DNA from: Planktothrix serta PCC 8927
GTDB taxonomy: Bacteria; Cyanobacteriota; Cyanobacteriia; Cyanobacteriales; Microcoleaceae
Assembly (NCBI RefSeq): GCF_900010725.2
Contig: NZ_LR734877.1
Coordinates: 317,412-381,411 of the forward strand
DNA length: 64,000 bases
Direction of reading: 5' to 3'
The first letter of the stretch is position 1, and the number at the start of each line of letters is the position of its first letter. This document shows, one piece after another, positions 2,756 through 64,000 of the stretch. The notes under the pieces are model-generated. The model made no database searches. It was not told the DNA's origin and worked only from the letters and a program-made list of their open reading frames with translations. A program made the position numbers and the translations under genes.

Positions 2756-4699
2756 TTAATTAAAATTCATTCCCCCTAAAGGAACAGATATTAAATCATG
2801 AAATTGGGTATCCCGAATTCGTTTTAATTCCCATATCCATTTTGTTTCTGCATCAATTTGTTGATAATATTTTTGAGCCAAGTTCTGCTCTTTTGAAACA
2901 TCTGTTTCTTGCCATAATTTTAACGCCATATCTCGTCTTTTTTGACAAATTACAGTTTCAATAGACGCAACAGAACTGCGAATAATTAAGCGGGCGCGAC
3001 AAATATCAATTTCTGTATGTTCATCCAGATAAAATAAATGATAAAATTGTTTTGTTTGTTGATTTTCCTGTAAGCAAACTTGTTGCAATTCTAAAATTAA
3101 ATCAACGGAATCTAAACTTTTTTGATATTTTTCTTCAATTTTAGTAATTTCTCGCCATAAAAACCGATGATGCGCTAAACTAAATTGTAAATCTCTGGCT
3201 TCTAAAGCATCAAAAATGGTGAGACGATATTCGGGACAATGTAAATAAATTCTCAGGAGTTTAACTTCGGCTTCTTCTAATAAACTGCGTTCAGAATTAA
3301 CTGTAACTAAAGCATTAGAAGATAGTTTATCTTTTCCCGTTTCTACCTGGGGTTTATTAACTTGGGTTTGTAAATTTTTAGCTAAAAGCGGAATTAACCG
3401 AGATTGTCCTTGACTCAGAAGTTCAGCACAATATTCAATATAATGAGTGCGTTGCATTCCATTGTCAATTTTTCTTAATAACTCTACCATCTGATGAGAG
3501 ACTTGTTGAGATTGGGCAACGGTTTCTAGGTTTTTTCCCATTAATAATCGTTGAATTTGCCACTCAATCCAAAGGGGAGAATTTAACAATAATTTTTGAT
3601 AATCTTCGGCAGAATTATGGATTAAAAATTCATCAGGATCTTTCCCAGAGGGAATATTTAAAATCCGTAAGTTAATATAACCTTGATAAGCGAGATCTTC
3701 AATTTCCCCGATGGCGCGTTCGGCGGCTTTATTTCCAGCAACATCGGCATCAAAATTCAGAATAATTTGCTTAGATTCAGTATAACGAACTAACTGCCGA
3801 ACTTGATTTAAACTTAAGGCAGTTCCTAAAGAAGCCACAACGTTTTGAATTCCCGCCGTATGTAAAGCAATGACATCAAAATAGCCTTCAACAACAATCG
3901 CTTGATCTTGCTTACTAATTGCATTTTTAGCTTTGTCTAAAGCAAATAACGTTTTACCTTTATCAAATAATTCGGTTTCGGGAGAATTGAGATATTTCGG
4001 AAGTTCATCTCCTAAACTTCTGCCCCCAAATCCAATAATTTTTCCCTGACTATCATGAATTGGAATCATTAACCGATCTCTAAACCGATCATAATACCCA
4101 TTTCCTGTTTTTCGAGGCACAATTAACCCTGCTTGTTCGACTAATTCCGCCGGAAAATGTTTTTGTTCAACTAGATAATCATAGAGAGTTTCCCATCCTT
4201 GGGGCGCATATCCTAATTGAAACTGTTGAATTGTATCTTCTTTAAGATGGCGTTTTAATTTTAAATAATCTAAAGCGGGTAATCCTTCCGATTGTCTTAA
4301 AACGTGTTGATAAAAGCTGGTAGCGATCGCTAAAATCTCATATAATTGTTCTCGTAAAGAAATCTGTCTCTGTAATTCCTCTCGTTTTTCGGGTTCTACA
4401 GTTTTCACCGGAATTTGATAGCGTTTAGCTAACTCTAAAACCACTTCACTAAAGGAACGTTTCTCTAAATCCATGATAAATTTCATGGCATTTCCCGCCG
4501 CCCCACATCCAAAACAATAAAACATTTGTTTAGTCGGACTAACGGTAAAACTAGGGGTTTTTTCATCATGAAAGGGACACAACCCCACAAAATCTTTTCC
4601 CCGTCGTTTCAAGACCACTTTCTCGGATACGACATCATAAATATCAGCGCGTTCCTTAACATCTTCGATTGTTTCTGGATGAATTCGGGGAGTCAACAT
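2756..4699 (-). CDS. dnaG: DNA primase DnaG
   Basis: Synthesises RNA primers on the lagging strand during replication. The 647-residue length is usual for the family. The N-terminal zinc-binding domain has the CHC2 pattern (C41, H44, C62, C65). The catalytic core follows, with the TOPRIM signature VVEGYFDVIAL and the metal-binding NFDAD motif at roughly residues 270-330, then a helicase-interacting C-terminal region. The start MLTPRIHPETI is the conserved one. The promoter region and 5' coding bases are partly duplicated at 5721-5896, beyond a toxin-antitoxin pair. Confidence 0.97.
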   Translation of the reverse strand: MLTPRIHPETIEDVKERADIYDVVSEKVVLKRRGKDFVGLCPFHDEKTPSFTVSPTKQMFYCFGCGAAGNAMKFIMDLEKRSFSEVVLELAKRYQIPVKTVEPEKREELQRQISLREQLYEILAIATSFYQHVLRQSEGLPALDYLKLKRHLKEDTIQQFQLGYAPQGWETLYDYLVEQKHFPAELVEQAGLIVPRKTGNGYYDRFRDRLMIPIHDSQGKIIGFGGRSLGDELPKYLNSPETELFDKGKTLFALDKAKNAISKQDQAIVVEGYFDVIALHTAGIQNVVASLGTALSLNQVRQLVRYTESKQIILNFDADVAGNKAAERAIGEIEDLAYQGYINLRILNIPSGKDPDEFLIHNSAEDYQKLLLNSPLWIEWQIQRLLMGKNLETVAQSQQVSHQMVELLRKIDNGMQRTHYIEYCAELLSQGQSRLIPLLAKNLQTQVNKPQVETGKDKLSSNALVTVNSERSLLEEAEVKLLRIYLHCPEYRLTIFDALEARDLQFSLAHHRFLWREITKIEEKYQKSLDSVDLILELQQVCLQENQQTKQFYHLFYLDEHTEIDICRARLIIRSSVASIETVICQKRRDMALKLWQETDVSKEQNLAQKYYQQIDAETKWIWELKRIRDTQFHDLISVPLGGMNFN

Positions 4700-4850
4700 T
4701 GGGGATGAGATTAAAATGATAAGTCTTTATTTTGCCATAAAATACCCTTGATGATCCCTCTAATTTTTTTAGTATCTGATTTTTTGAAAGGTATCATTAT
4801 TTACAAGGGGCATAAATTCAAGAAATTGAACTTGCTATTGATCGCACCCT

Positions 4851-60254: not shown

Positions 60255-61556
60255 TCAATTTTGAATGGTAACTTTAACTTGTAAATTAGTTAAACTAGCC
60301 GCTTTTTTGCTAGAAGTTTCATCTAATTTAACGCGAACTTCGATGACTCTGGCATCAATATTTGTCGTCGGATCAATATCTAAAGCACTTTGTTTTTTGA
60401 CTCTTAACCCAACTTCTTCAACAGTCCCTTTTAACGCTTGGGGTAACGCATCGGCGGCAATAGTTGCGGTTTGTCCCGAATGTATTTTAGGAATATCGCT
60501 ATCATAAATTTCAGCAACGGCATACATTTGTTCGGTTTGTCCCAATTCCAGAATACCTTCATTAGAAATGAGTTCTCCGGCGTGGGTATTGACGTCGATC
60601 ACCCGTCCCGCTTGGGGCGATCGCACATAAGCTTGTTCTAAATTGGCTTCCGCTTGTTTAACAGCAGCTTGGGCCTTGGTTAACTCACTTTTGGCTAATT
60701 GCACATCCACCGGACGAACTTCTGCAACGGCCGTTAACGTCGCCGAAGCTTCAGCAATTTGTTGGTCAACGGTGGCAATAGTACGGCTGAGGTTGGCTTG
60801 AGCTTCTCGAATTTGTTCTCGACGGCTAGTAACGGTTTCATTGAGGTTAGCTTGGGCTTCCTGTAAGCGTTTGCGACTGGTTTCAGCTTGCAAACATTGA
60901 CTATCCCGATCTTGGGCAGACACAGCCCCATCTCGATATAAGGTTTCGTAGCGTTGACAGTTAGTTTCGGCGTTGTTGAGTTCCGCTTGAATGCGGTCTA
61001 GGGTGGCTTCTTGGGCGCTACGTTCTCCCCGCAGTTGAGCTTCTAAGGTGGCAATGGAGGCTTTTTGAGTAATAATTTGCCCCTCTAACTCCGCTTGGTT
61101 GCCCTGAAATCGGGCTTTTTGAGCTTGAATATCCCCCTGTTTCGCCCCGGCTTGAACTTGCTCTAAACGGGCTTGGGCGACTTCCACTTCAGTTTTTGCT
61201 TGTTCTAGGGCGGCTTGGAGTCGATCTCGACTATCCAACACAGCGATCGCTTTTCCCGCCTCTACCCAGTCTCCCTCTTTCACCAATAATTGATCCACCC
61301 GACTCCCTTGGTTGGACTGGGGCGCTGACAGTTTAATAATCTCCCCTTGGGGCTCTAACCAACCCAACGCCGTCACCGTTTTGATTTCTGGGGCGATGCT
61401 TTCCGGTATGGCTACGGGTTCGGCGGGAGTGGGCCGATATCGCCAGAAGGTATAAGCCATTAAACCCGTCATGGCTAGGGTAGTTGCAGCAATGAGAATC
61501 CCCGGTTTAGGAAATTTCGGGGCTGAAAGTTTACCAACTGTCGCTTCGCGCACCAT
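60255..61556 (-). CDS. devB: DevB-family membrane fusion protein
   Basis: A 433-residue HlyD-type adaptor: membrane helix near 18-40, a lipoyl half-motif (VDQLLVKEGDWVEAGKAIAVLD), a long coiled-coil hairpin (about 110-300), a second lipoyl half (VRSPQAGRVIDVNTHAGEL), and the DevB C-terminus (EEVGLRVKKQSALDIDPTTNIDARVIEV). It links the DevCA inner-membrane pump to an outer-membrane channel. A TetR-type operator sits 25 bases upstream. Confidence 0.95.
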   Translation of the reverse strand: MVREATVGKLSAPKFPKPGILIAATTLAMTGLMAYTFWRYRPTPAEPVAIPESIAPEIKTVTALGWLEPQGEIIKLSAPQSNQGSRVDQLLVKEGDWVEAGKAIAVLDSRDRLQAALEQAKTEVEVAQARLEQVQAGAKQGDIQAQKARFQGNQAELEGQIITQKASIATLEAQLRGERSAQEATLDRIQAELNNAETNCQRYETLYRDGAVSAQDRDSQCLQAETSRKRLQEAQANLNETVTSRREQIREAQANLSRTIATVDQQIAEASATLTAVAEVRPVDVQLAKSELTKAQAAVKQAEANLEQAYVRSPQAGRVIDVNTHAGELISNEGILELGQTEQMYAVAEIYDSDIPKIHSGQTATIAADALPQALKGTVEEVGLRVKKQSALDIDPTTNIDARVIEVRVKLDETSSKKAASLTNLQVKVTIQN

Positions 61557-61602: not shown

Positions 61603-61669
61603 TACCATAAAAAGGTATGGATGAAGAAACCTCGAATAAATACCTACTTAACCAGTTCTTAGTGAGTGT

Positions 61670-62779
61670 CTATTTTGTCGCTGAAATACAAGTAATAACC
61701 GGATAATCTGGATGATAAGCATCTAATTCTTCAGTTGTCAATTCTTCTGTAACGATGCCATGATAGGCAGCTACTACAGTGATCAGATTACCATAAGTAT
61801 ATATTTTTTGTTGGGAAAAGTTTCTCAGCATCCAAGCAAAAGCATCAGGGAGAGGTCGCCAATAATCTTGAGGAGCATCATGGATTTTTAAAGCACTAGG
61901 AACGCTGGCAAAACATTTACCTCCTGGTTTTAACCACCTGTGAATATTTTCTATCACTATCCAAGGTGCATAACAATGTTCCAAAACATTAAATAGGATG
62001 ATTGTATCAAAAGATTCCGGTTGAATTACGTTAATATCATGAGCATCGCCAACGATATCTACTCCTGACCACCTATCCATGTTCAGAACATGATAGGAAG
62101 ATTCTTCAGTTAATTGATAAGATTCTTTGGCTGTTTCTATAGCGCCGATTTCCAGAATATTACCAACAATTTCTGGCCTAATTTTTTCAATAAACTTGTC
62201 CAGATAATACCGATCAATTGGTTGTCCCCTCAAAAAACCGAAGGCTTGACAAATGGGGTTTGTTCTCTTTAAATCACCCCAGTCTATGGATTTATTAGCA
62301 ATAGATAATAACCCCGCTTTTTCCAGATGAAAGACTATTTTAGTAAAGTCTTCTATGTTGTTAATTTCTTCTAAATCATTCTTGAGGGAGAAGGGAGAAA
62401 ATAAATGGACGAGAACTTGAGGATTAATCTGACTTAAGGCACTCAGATCAACTTGTTGTGTTGCGTCAAAAAAACTACTAAAGTCTTTTTCTAATATTGT
62501 TAAATGTCCTTCTCTTAATAAGACTAAGGCTTGATTGGAGATGATAGAGCTATGGTTTTGGATGGCTTCAGTAATCTTCTCACTGCTAGGGGCTGATTTT
62601 ATGTTTTGAAAAGTTTTGTAAGCTGATTCAATATCATGTTGATAAATAAATATCTCTAGAACTGCTAACCAAGATTGGGCTAGAATTAGTTCGGGTGGAC
62701 AGTGACTCCAGCTAAATACTCCATAAACTTGAGAATTCTCTACTTTTAAAAAGGCATTGGGTATATATTGTTTAGCCAT
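61670..62779 (-). CDS. Class I SAM methyltransferase with unknown N-terminus
   Basis: A 369-residue protein. The C-terminal 190 residues form an AdoMet-dependent methyltransferase: VGNILEIGAIETA (motif I, loosely kept), GDAHDINVIQPESFDTIILFNVLEHC, and IHRWLKPGGKCFASVPSAL. The N-terminal 180 residues (WLAVLEIFIYQHDIESAYKTF; LREGHLTILEKDF) are helical and unidentified. Similar enzymes methylate sugars or nonribosomal products; target unknown. Confidence 0.85.
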   Translation of the reverse strand: MAKQYIPNAFLKVENSQVYGVFSWSHCPPELILAQSWLAVLEIFIYQHDIESAYKTFQNIKSAPSSEKITEAIQNHSSIISNQALVLLREGHLTILEKDFSSFFDATQQVDLSALSQINPQVLVHLFSPFSLKNDLEEINNIEDFTKIVFHLEKAGLLSIANKSIDWGDLKRTNPICQAFGFLRGQPIDRYYLDKFIEKIRPEIVGNILEIGAIETAKESYQLTEESSYHVLNMDRWSGVDIVGDAHDINVIQPESFDTIILFNVLEHCYAPWIVIENIHRWLKPGGKCFASVPSALKIHDAPQDYWRPLPDAFAWMLRNFSQQKIYTYGNLITVVAAYHGIVTEELTTEELDAYHPDYPVITCISATK

Positions 62780-63000
62780 GATTTTACTTAATTATTGTGT
62801 ACAGATAGATTTGTTTTCCTGGGGGTGTTAATTTTCATAATTGATCTCTAATATACCATCTTTTGTATCTAATCCTTAGCGTGCCCTGATCATGCCTCAA
62901 TAATTTGTGGATGATTGCGAGGTTCAAGCAAAATTAGTTGTGATTGATAACATCTGTTAAGATTAGTAGCAGAAACATAACAACTCTTGGGAGATTTATT

Positions 63001-63510
63001 ATGGGTTTGTTTGACAAATTGAAGACACTAGTATCCGACGACAGATCTGACACCAGAGGTATAGAAATTTTTGCACCACTTTCTGGTGAAATCGTTCCTA
63101 TTGAAGATGTCCCGGATGTGGTTTTCGCAGAGAAGATTGTAGGTGATGGTATTGCTATCAAGCCGACTGGTAACAAGATGGTTGCTCCTTGCAATGGCAC
63201 TATTGGCAAGATATTTGAAGCAAACCATGCCTTTTCTATTGAATCAGATACTGGTATCGAGGTATTTGTACACTTTGGTATTGATACCACAGAACTAAGA
63301 GGTGAAGGTTTCACCCGTATCGCTGAAGAAGGTCAAACTGTAAAAGTGGGTGATACTATTCTTGAATTTGATTTAGCTCTTTTAGAAGAAAAAGCAAAAT
63401 CAACTATAACCCCGGTTGTTATCTCTAATTTGGATGAAATTAAAGAGCTGATCAAAATGTCTGGTAGTGTTACCGCTGGTGAAACTCCTGTTTTAAGGTT
63501 GGTAAAATAA
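63001..63510 (+). CDS. crr: PTS glucose-type EIIA protein, Crr-like
   Basis: A 169-residue cytoplasmic EIIA(Glc) with the same length and start ([14 protein letters not shown]) as enterobacterial Crr. Seen: [40 protein letters not shown], both active histidines (NHAFSIESD and VHFGIDT), and [20 protein letters not shown]. It would accept phosphate from HPr and pass it to a sugar permease or control other enzymes. No HPr, EI or EIIBC is near. Codon use (more AAG and GGT) differs from neighbours. A GGGAG site lies 8 bases before the ATG. Horizontal transfer is inferred. Confidence 0.95.
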
Positions 63511-63573
63511 TACAACAGTGAATTTTTTTCTGGTGATGAGGCTTTCTTTTCACCATTCTTCCTAATTTAAAAT

Positions 63574-63623
63574 CCCGTTGTTGCGCTTCAGCGCTCCAAG
63601 AGGGGCTAAAGCCCAACAACGGG
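63574..63623. terminator. Hairpin between crr and the next convergent gene
   Basis: Perfect 10-bp arms CCCGTTGTTG (63574-63583) and CAACAACGGG (63614-63623), with inner GGGCTAAAGCCC. It lies between convergent genes and may end both; no long T run is present. It may also be a dispersed cyanobacterial repeat. Confidence 0.5.
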
Positions 63624-63633
63624 GTGTGAGAGT

Positions 63634-64000
63634 TTAAGAATCTGCTAATTGTTTAGTAATATTGCTGTTAGCAGTTCTAACTTCTAGGGTGACATCTCCT
63701 AATTTTCGTTGCTCCCCGTCATGGAGTTCTTGTTTAAGAATTTTCATCCCCCTTTCCTTCATTTCCTCGTCAAATTCCATAATAATTTTTTCCCCTTCTG
63801 TGTAAATTTTGGCAGTAATTGGAGGATATCCTTGACTTTTTCTCAGGTAAATATGGTTGTTTTCTGAACTACCTAATAAAACAGGTTCTGCTCCTAAATT
63901 GATCTTCGTTTGTTCGCTAGGAGTCCAATACACAATTAACCAAGATTCACGACTAAATTGTTCAATTAAAGCGATCATTAAACCAATAAAAAATCCAATA
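63634..64000 (-). CDS. C-terminal part of a membrane-linked FHA-like protein
   Basis: The frame stays open to the window edge, so the gene starts outside; about 122 residues are seen. It begins within a hydrophobic stretch (IGFFIGLMIALIEQ) followed by a beta-rich domain (INLGAEPVLLGSSENNHIYL; ITAKIYTEGEKIIMEF) that resembles FHA-like modules at the ends of cyanobacterial vWA or kinase proteins. No catalytic motif is in the visible part. Confidence 0.6.
   Translation of the reverse strand, partial: IGFFIGLMIALIEQFSRESWLIVYWTPSEQTKINLGAEPVLLGSSENNHIYLRKSQGYPPITAKIYTEGEKIIMEFDEEMKERGMKILKQELHDGEQRKLGDVTLEVRTANSNITKQLADS

Follow-up and report, generated by a model that had tools for sequence, protein, structure and literature searches.

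A crr gene of apparent gammaproteobacterial origin in a Planktothrix genome that encodes its own glucose phosphotransferase system

Why should a cyanobacterium carry a stand-alone gene for Crr (EIIA-Glc), a component of the phosphotransferase system (PTS)? A 222-genome survey describes the PTS as absent from cyanobacteria (PMC2405797), and on that account the setting of this gene is unusual. A literature search, in which subscription journals are poorly covered, found neither a paper devoted by its title to Planktothrix Crr or to a glucose PTS in this genus, nor one on crr transfer into cyanobacteria. The window that we have analyzed is a stretch of 64,000 nucleotides from Planktothrix serta PCC 8927, and occupies positions 317412-381411 of a contig 641,688 bp long. 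The host genome comprises 6.27 Mb in 155 contigs, and is listed as 99.91% complete with 0 contamination.

The gene lies at 63001..63510 on the plus strand and encodes 169 aa, with the coordinates, start, frame and length of the original prediction all correct. That prediction's identification of the product is also secure. The protein scores 292 bits on NCBIfam PRK09439, the Crr equivalog model, against a cut-off of 212, and Pfam PF00358 (PTS_EIIA_1, 6.1e-48) is the single Pfam family within it. It aligns end to end (residues 1-168 or 1-169) with solved Crr chains, which we take to be the E. coli and Vibrio proteins. The histidines H75 and H90 in the usual numbering (76 and 91 in this protein) are both there, as they are in 53 of 53 gammaproteobacterial representatives. 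Like its gammaproteobacterial counterparts, the protein retains the N-terminal amphipathic stretch, to which we ascribe a role at the membrane. Judged by its sequence it is an ordinary Crr.

There are some departures from the gammaproteobacterial pattern. Position 96 is threonine, where all 53 representatives have valine, and V96 is presumably part of the partner-binding patch. From the closest gammaproteobacterial Crr the protein differs at 22 positions, two of them at the 72 invariant columns. This share of 0.09 is higher in only 3 of the 25 gammaproteobacterial rows with at least 15 differences, and for this reason the window protein seems to be under slightly weaker constraint than its counterparts in the donors. 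The dN/dS ratio of the window gene against two Photobacterium genes is 0.047-0.052, with dS near 2. If the transfer was recent, this low value would mostly be that of the donor, and would be no sign of selection in the Planktothrix host.

At the protein level the highest identity among the loci compared is 87.0%, to two loci that group with Aeromonas (L116 and L117), and among the matches listed at least 80 loci of Aeromonas, Photobacterium, Vibrio, Enterobacteriaceae and a Yersinia lie at 82-86%. At the DNA level the top identity is 78.1%, to a Vibrio (L052), with a maximum of 75.9% among 40 further loci. Donors closer than the matches listed may exist. A match is present in 243 of 295 genomes drawn from the order of A. 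taiwanensis.

A contrast in codon use between crr and its neighbors had been proposed, and it is borne out. AAG is used for 5 of 12 lysines, GGT for 14 of 16 glycines and TTG for 4 of 13 leucines, against host fractions of 0.15, 0.25 and 0.12, respectively. Only 1 of the 37 other open reading frames in the window scores lower under host codon use. The GC3 of crr is unremarkable: its value and the host median are both 0.28. The codon fit is best for Photobacterium (-1.045 and -1.050 per codon), followed by two Vibrio sets (-1.099 and -1.107), E. albertii (-1.166), the host (-1.183), two loci at about -1.53 and A. taiwanensis (-1.759), where the gammaproteobacterial sets are small, drawn from around crr, and have crr itself counted in.

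The sequence immediately upstream points to the origin of the gene. The 49 bases preceding the crr ATG (62952..63000, plus strand) open with ATCTGTTAA, encoding Ile-Cys-stop, which is how ptsI terminates, and continue as a ptsI-crr spacer with its ribosome-binding site that appears to be donor-derived. The best local alignment score is 46, with Photobacterium carnosum (L022, and L114 of the same genome), and the 12 top-scoring of 160 upstream regions compared, a set that includes duplicate loci, are all from Photobacterium. The null maxima are 36 for 300 random first-order Markov sequences and 37 for 300 windows of the host genome. When the last 20 bases are removed the score falls to 30, which lies above the 95% point (25) but just below the maximum (31), and thus the ribosome-binding part supplies some of the signal. 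The distance from the Ile-Cys-stop to the ATG is 49 nt in the window and in L035, L033 and L050, and 52 nt in L022 and L012. No ptsI similarity was seen 5′ of the 49-nt stretch; the remnant comprises only the extreme end of ptsI. There is no ptsHI-crr operon around the window gene, and neither a ptsH nor a ptsI gene alongside it; operon context is usual in the donors, although it is not demanded by the PRK09439 family model.

The protein trees comprised 95 rows (after duplicate removal from 137) and 61 rows (including 53 representatives of 172 gammaproteobacterial rows), and in them the window protein falls among Enterobacterales-type Crr, with the branching at the fork and the root not fixed. 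Constrained groupings of the window protein with four Aeromonas-group rows (p 0.662), with five Photobacterium rows (p 0.236), with the Crr of another cyanobacterium, G411 (p 0.437), with G411 plus G930 (p 0.338) and with three of the cyanobacterial fusion proteins described below (p 0.456) were not rejected, so these tests make no choice between Aeromonas and Photobacterium as donor and do not settle the root. The description of the gene as enterobacterial-looking thus holds as to its gammaproteobacterial source, but is too narrow, because the spacer indicates Photobacterium (Vibrionaceae) and the tree allows Aeromonas, Photobacterium and others. We read the transfer as a recent one, from a low-GC bacterium that is related to Photobacterium or Aeromonas but absent from our sample.

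A phage or plasmid carrier of crr was sought among viral contigs, phage records and plasmid records, and none was seen. The viral contigs gave one partial match (L092, 88% over 86 residues). Among 69 matching phage records two exceed 80% identity, and the one listed is a partial match at the end of its record. Of 747 matching plasmid records 13 lie at 80-90%, several of them chromosome-sized, and at the DNA level all 25 plasmid matches are at 60-80% and in gammaproteobacteria. L092 comes from a viral collection, stops soon after its partial crr match, and is possibly plain bacterial DNA.

The insertion site can be compared with that of relatives within the genus. One of these genomes, G009, is Planktothrix agardhii NIES-204, as shown by a 12,000-base plasmid stretch at 100%, and for another, G001, the top plasmid matches are in P. 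agardhii. The site is flanked on one side by an HlyD-like gene (60255..61556, minus strand) and on the other by the 3′ part of a VWA-domain gene (63634..64000, minus strand) that continues beyond the window. In six relatives (L176-L181) these two genes are adjacent, with no more than about 200 bp between the matches. Relative to L178 the extra DNA in the window spans 61614-63570, and contains a class I methyltransferase gene in addition to crr. The segment that carries crr has approximate limits of 62899..63570 (plus strand). Its left edge is where a 97% match to a close relative, G005, stops, and about 50 bp there have no assigned origin. Its right edge is the beginning of an intergenic repeat common to the relatives; this native inverted repeat (63574..63623, plus strand) is found at the same site in some relatives that lack crr. 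A VWA match is present in eight other genomes of the genus: the six relatives, in which the site was inspected, G005, which was inspected on its own, and G003 (57% identity), inspected in part. G002 gave no VWA match. A solo Crr is found in just one of the ten sampled genomes of the genus, although one of the other nine, G005, is only 73% complete.

The six relatives hinted that crr and the methyltransferase gene might be a single insert, and this was rejected on comparison with G005, which has the methyltransferase at the site and no crr. The methyltransferase gene (61670-62779, minus strand, within a segment 61614..62898) is apparently a separate and earlier insertion. Its product has relatives at 44-98% identity over most of its length in many cyanobacteria of a draw of genomes from the order; in G005 the protein is 98% identical and encoded between the VWA and HlyD-like genes, whereas the six relatives gave no match at the site. 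Among the genomes read, the gene is thus at this site only in the window and in G005. Where the crr stretch would lie, G005 has 317 bp of unrelated, repeat-rich sequence with an NN gap (L225 396-712). It follows that crr probably arrived separately from and later than the methyltransferase, unless G005 has lost it. A search of G005 for the two flanks of crr found neither, although, given the NN gap and 73% completeness, a hidden crr is conceivable there. G005 also has about 1.5 kb more DNA between its methyltransferase and HlyD-like genes (L225 1970-3510).

The insertion of a piece of a gammaproteobacterial pts operon into the Planktothrix lineage is supported by homology, by the spacer and by relatives lacking crr. 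We read the event as a recent transfer in which a fragment from the ptsI-crr junction, running from the final ptsI codons to the end of crr, would have been placed between two cyanobacterial genes. The earlier suggestion of a gammaproteobacterial transfer, probably recent, thus gains from the non-host codon use, the spacer that was brought along and the crr-less site of the relatives.

What could such a protein do in its new host? The original prediction started from the general lack of a PTS in cyanobacteria, which does not extend to this host. We searched the whole genome for EIIA-Glc-type, EIIC and HPr sequences. Matches of EIIA-Glc type occur only at crr and on contig C21 (L105, 4,950 bp), and those of EIIC and HPr on C21 only, in keeping with the earlier observation that crr has no other PTS gene nearby. 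C21 encodes an EIIA-HPr-EI fusion of 847 aa (277-2820), within which the EI was seen, and a glucose-type EIICB of 612 aa (2966-4804). On the glucose-specific model TIGR02002, whose cut-off is 591.8, the EIICB scores 655.3, and it falls narrowly short of the PtsG model NF008301 (644.7 against 647). The histidine motifs of EIIA, HPr and EI and one cysteine motif of EIIB are found, and we take these to be the active-site motifs of the four components; a second EIIB domain in the EIICB lacks the cysteine. In 8 of the 10 genomes of the genus including the host, and thus in 7 of the other 9, EIIA matches lie in fusion-sized frames of 850-878 aa. The order draw, with 388 genomes, has 13 in which such matches lie in frames of 850-884 aa. 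A comparable EIICB frame follows the fusion, by eye, in six loci (L110, L111, L112, L203, L204 and L205).

The fusion and the window protein have in common a glucose-type EIIA with both histidines. They differ in size, the EIIA domain of the fusion is just 44.6% identical to the window Crr, and the fusions of C21 and its relatives form a separate branch (100/100) with the root not fixed.

On this basis we propose that the transferred Crr works as an extra EIIA in the resident glucose PTS. The HPr domain of the host fusion would phosphorylate Crr at H90, and Crr would in turn phosphorylate the EIIB domain of the host EIICB. As a freely diffusing protein it might boost or couple the resident system. 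We assign this reading a probability of about 45%, the phosphotransfer steps being inferred. In its favor we count the family score, the identity of up to 87%, the spacer, the codon fit, the crr-less site in relatives, the resident PTS, the dN/dS and the change of only 2 invariant columns in 22 differences. Against it we count the EIIA domain already present in the resident fusion, the V96T substitution, the looser share of invariant columns, the lack of a promoter-like site upstream and the relaxed constraint on captured Crr in other cyanobacteria. The promoter scan, confined to the sigma-70 type, gave no site upstream of crr, and one inside the gene where 2.7 were expected.

Solo Crr occurs elsewhere in the phylum, but rarely. 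In three overlapping samples, each of which includes the host genome, sequences above the Crr cut-off were found in 1 of 59 relatives, 2 of 386 genomes of a phylum draw and 5 of 388 of the order draw. The five genomes are the host, G411 and G930 (one genus), and G767 and G791 (one family). All have a stand-alone gamma-type Crr above the family cut-off, and the other four are 72-74% identical to the window protein over aligned columns and lie at other loci. Both histidines are kept in the window protein and in G411, whereas they are lost in G767 (H75E, H90Q) and H90 is lost in G930 (H90Y), so that phospho-histidines are gone in two of the five copies. A single shared capture of all five is disfavored at p 0.0315, a marginal value that involves long branches, and probably at least two captures lie behind them. 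The crr pairs G411-G930 and G767-G791 have dN/dS ratios of 0.57 and 0.21, respectively, where four gammaproteobacterial crr pairs have 0.02-0.03 and two neighboring genes of G411 and G930 give 0.10 and 0.22. For these captured copies relaxation fits at least as well as recruitment. A search for HPr in 13 chosen genomes found it in nine, with no match in G767, G791, G001 and G005. The G767 gene (L199 9916-10425, plus strand), lacking both histidines, and that of G791 (L200 9706-10215, minus strand), in which both are present, therefore lie in genomes with no HPr match.

The relaxation seen in these copies bears on the function of the window gene, which could be a recently captured passenger with no function in the cyanobacterium, heading for decay or loss. 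This is quite possible, and nearly as likely as a role as extra EIIA. It would account for the presence of crr in so few genomes of the genus, the other sequence at the same place in the close relative G005, the elevated dN/dS and lost phospho-histidines of captured genes elsewhere, and the failure to find a promoter-like site upstream. Yet the frame is intact, with a donor ribosome-binding site and both histidines, and a resident PTS is available for Crr to join. The presence of that PTS also bears on the suggestion that Crr has been recruited solely as a regulator, binding a host transporter, cyclase or kinase and taking no part in sugar phosphorylation. Crr of E. coli has regulatory binding roles of this type, and solo Crr in two cyanobacteria with no HPr match could be read in the same way. 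Such a role is possible but not needed, because the host has the EIIA-HPr-EI fusion and the EIICB; participation in the PTS is simpler, and inspection by eye revealed no neighbor that solo Crr loci from different groups have in common. We consider a purely regulatory role unlikely.

Two further explanations would deny the transfer itself. Contamination or an assembly error, the latter raised in the original prediction, might be entertained since this crr was seen in one assembly only. It is very improbable given that crr lies between cyanobacterial genes on a contig of 641,688 bp, that contamination is listed as 0, and that DNA identity to the loci compared reaches 78.1% at most. Alternatively, the gene might be an old cyanobacterial one, a deep sister of gammaproteobacterial Crr, given that the test did not reject its grouping with the fusions of cyanobacteria and that these attach by a very long branch that barely fixes the root. 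This reading, already disfavored, is the least probable of all. It is hard to reconcile with 87.0% identity to the Aeromonas-group loci against 44.6% to the host fusion EIIA, with the ptsI stop and Photobacterium-type spacer 5′ of crr, or with the failure to find crr in the nine other sampled members of the genus, which include the 73% complete G005.

Here we have a cyanobacterial genus with a complete-looking glucose PTS, one member of which appears to have acquired a further EIIA of gammaproteobacterial origin. Whether a captured component can join a resident system may thus be put to the test. The captures elsewhere are at several stages, with histidines kept or lost, so recruitment and decay could be distinguished. 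A broader scheme, which we consider decidedly unlikely, is that cyanobacteria repeatedly capture gammaproteobacterial Crr (once together with HPr), keep its binding surfaces and drop the histidines to give phosphorylation-blind regulators or decoys, the window gene being a fresh capture before such change. In G930 (L201 9153-9939, minus strand) crr is followed directly by an HPr gene whose product shares 89% identity with an Enterobacter HPr across 82 residues and carries H15Y, and both phosphorylated histidines of this pair are therefore tyrosine.
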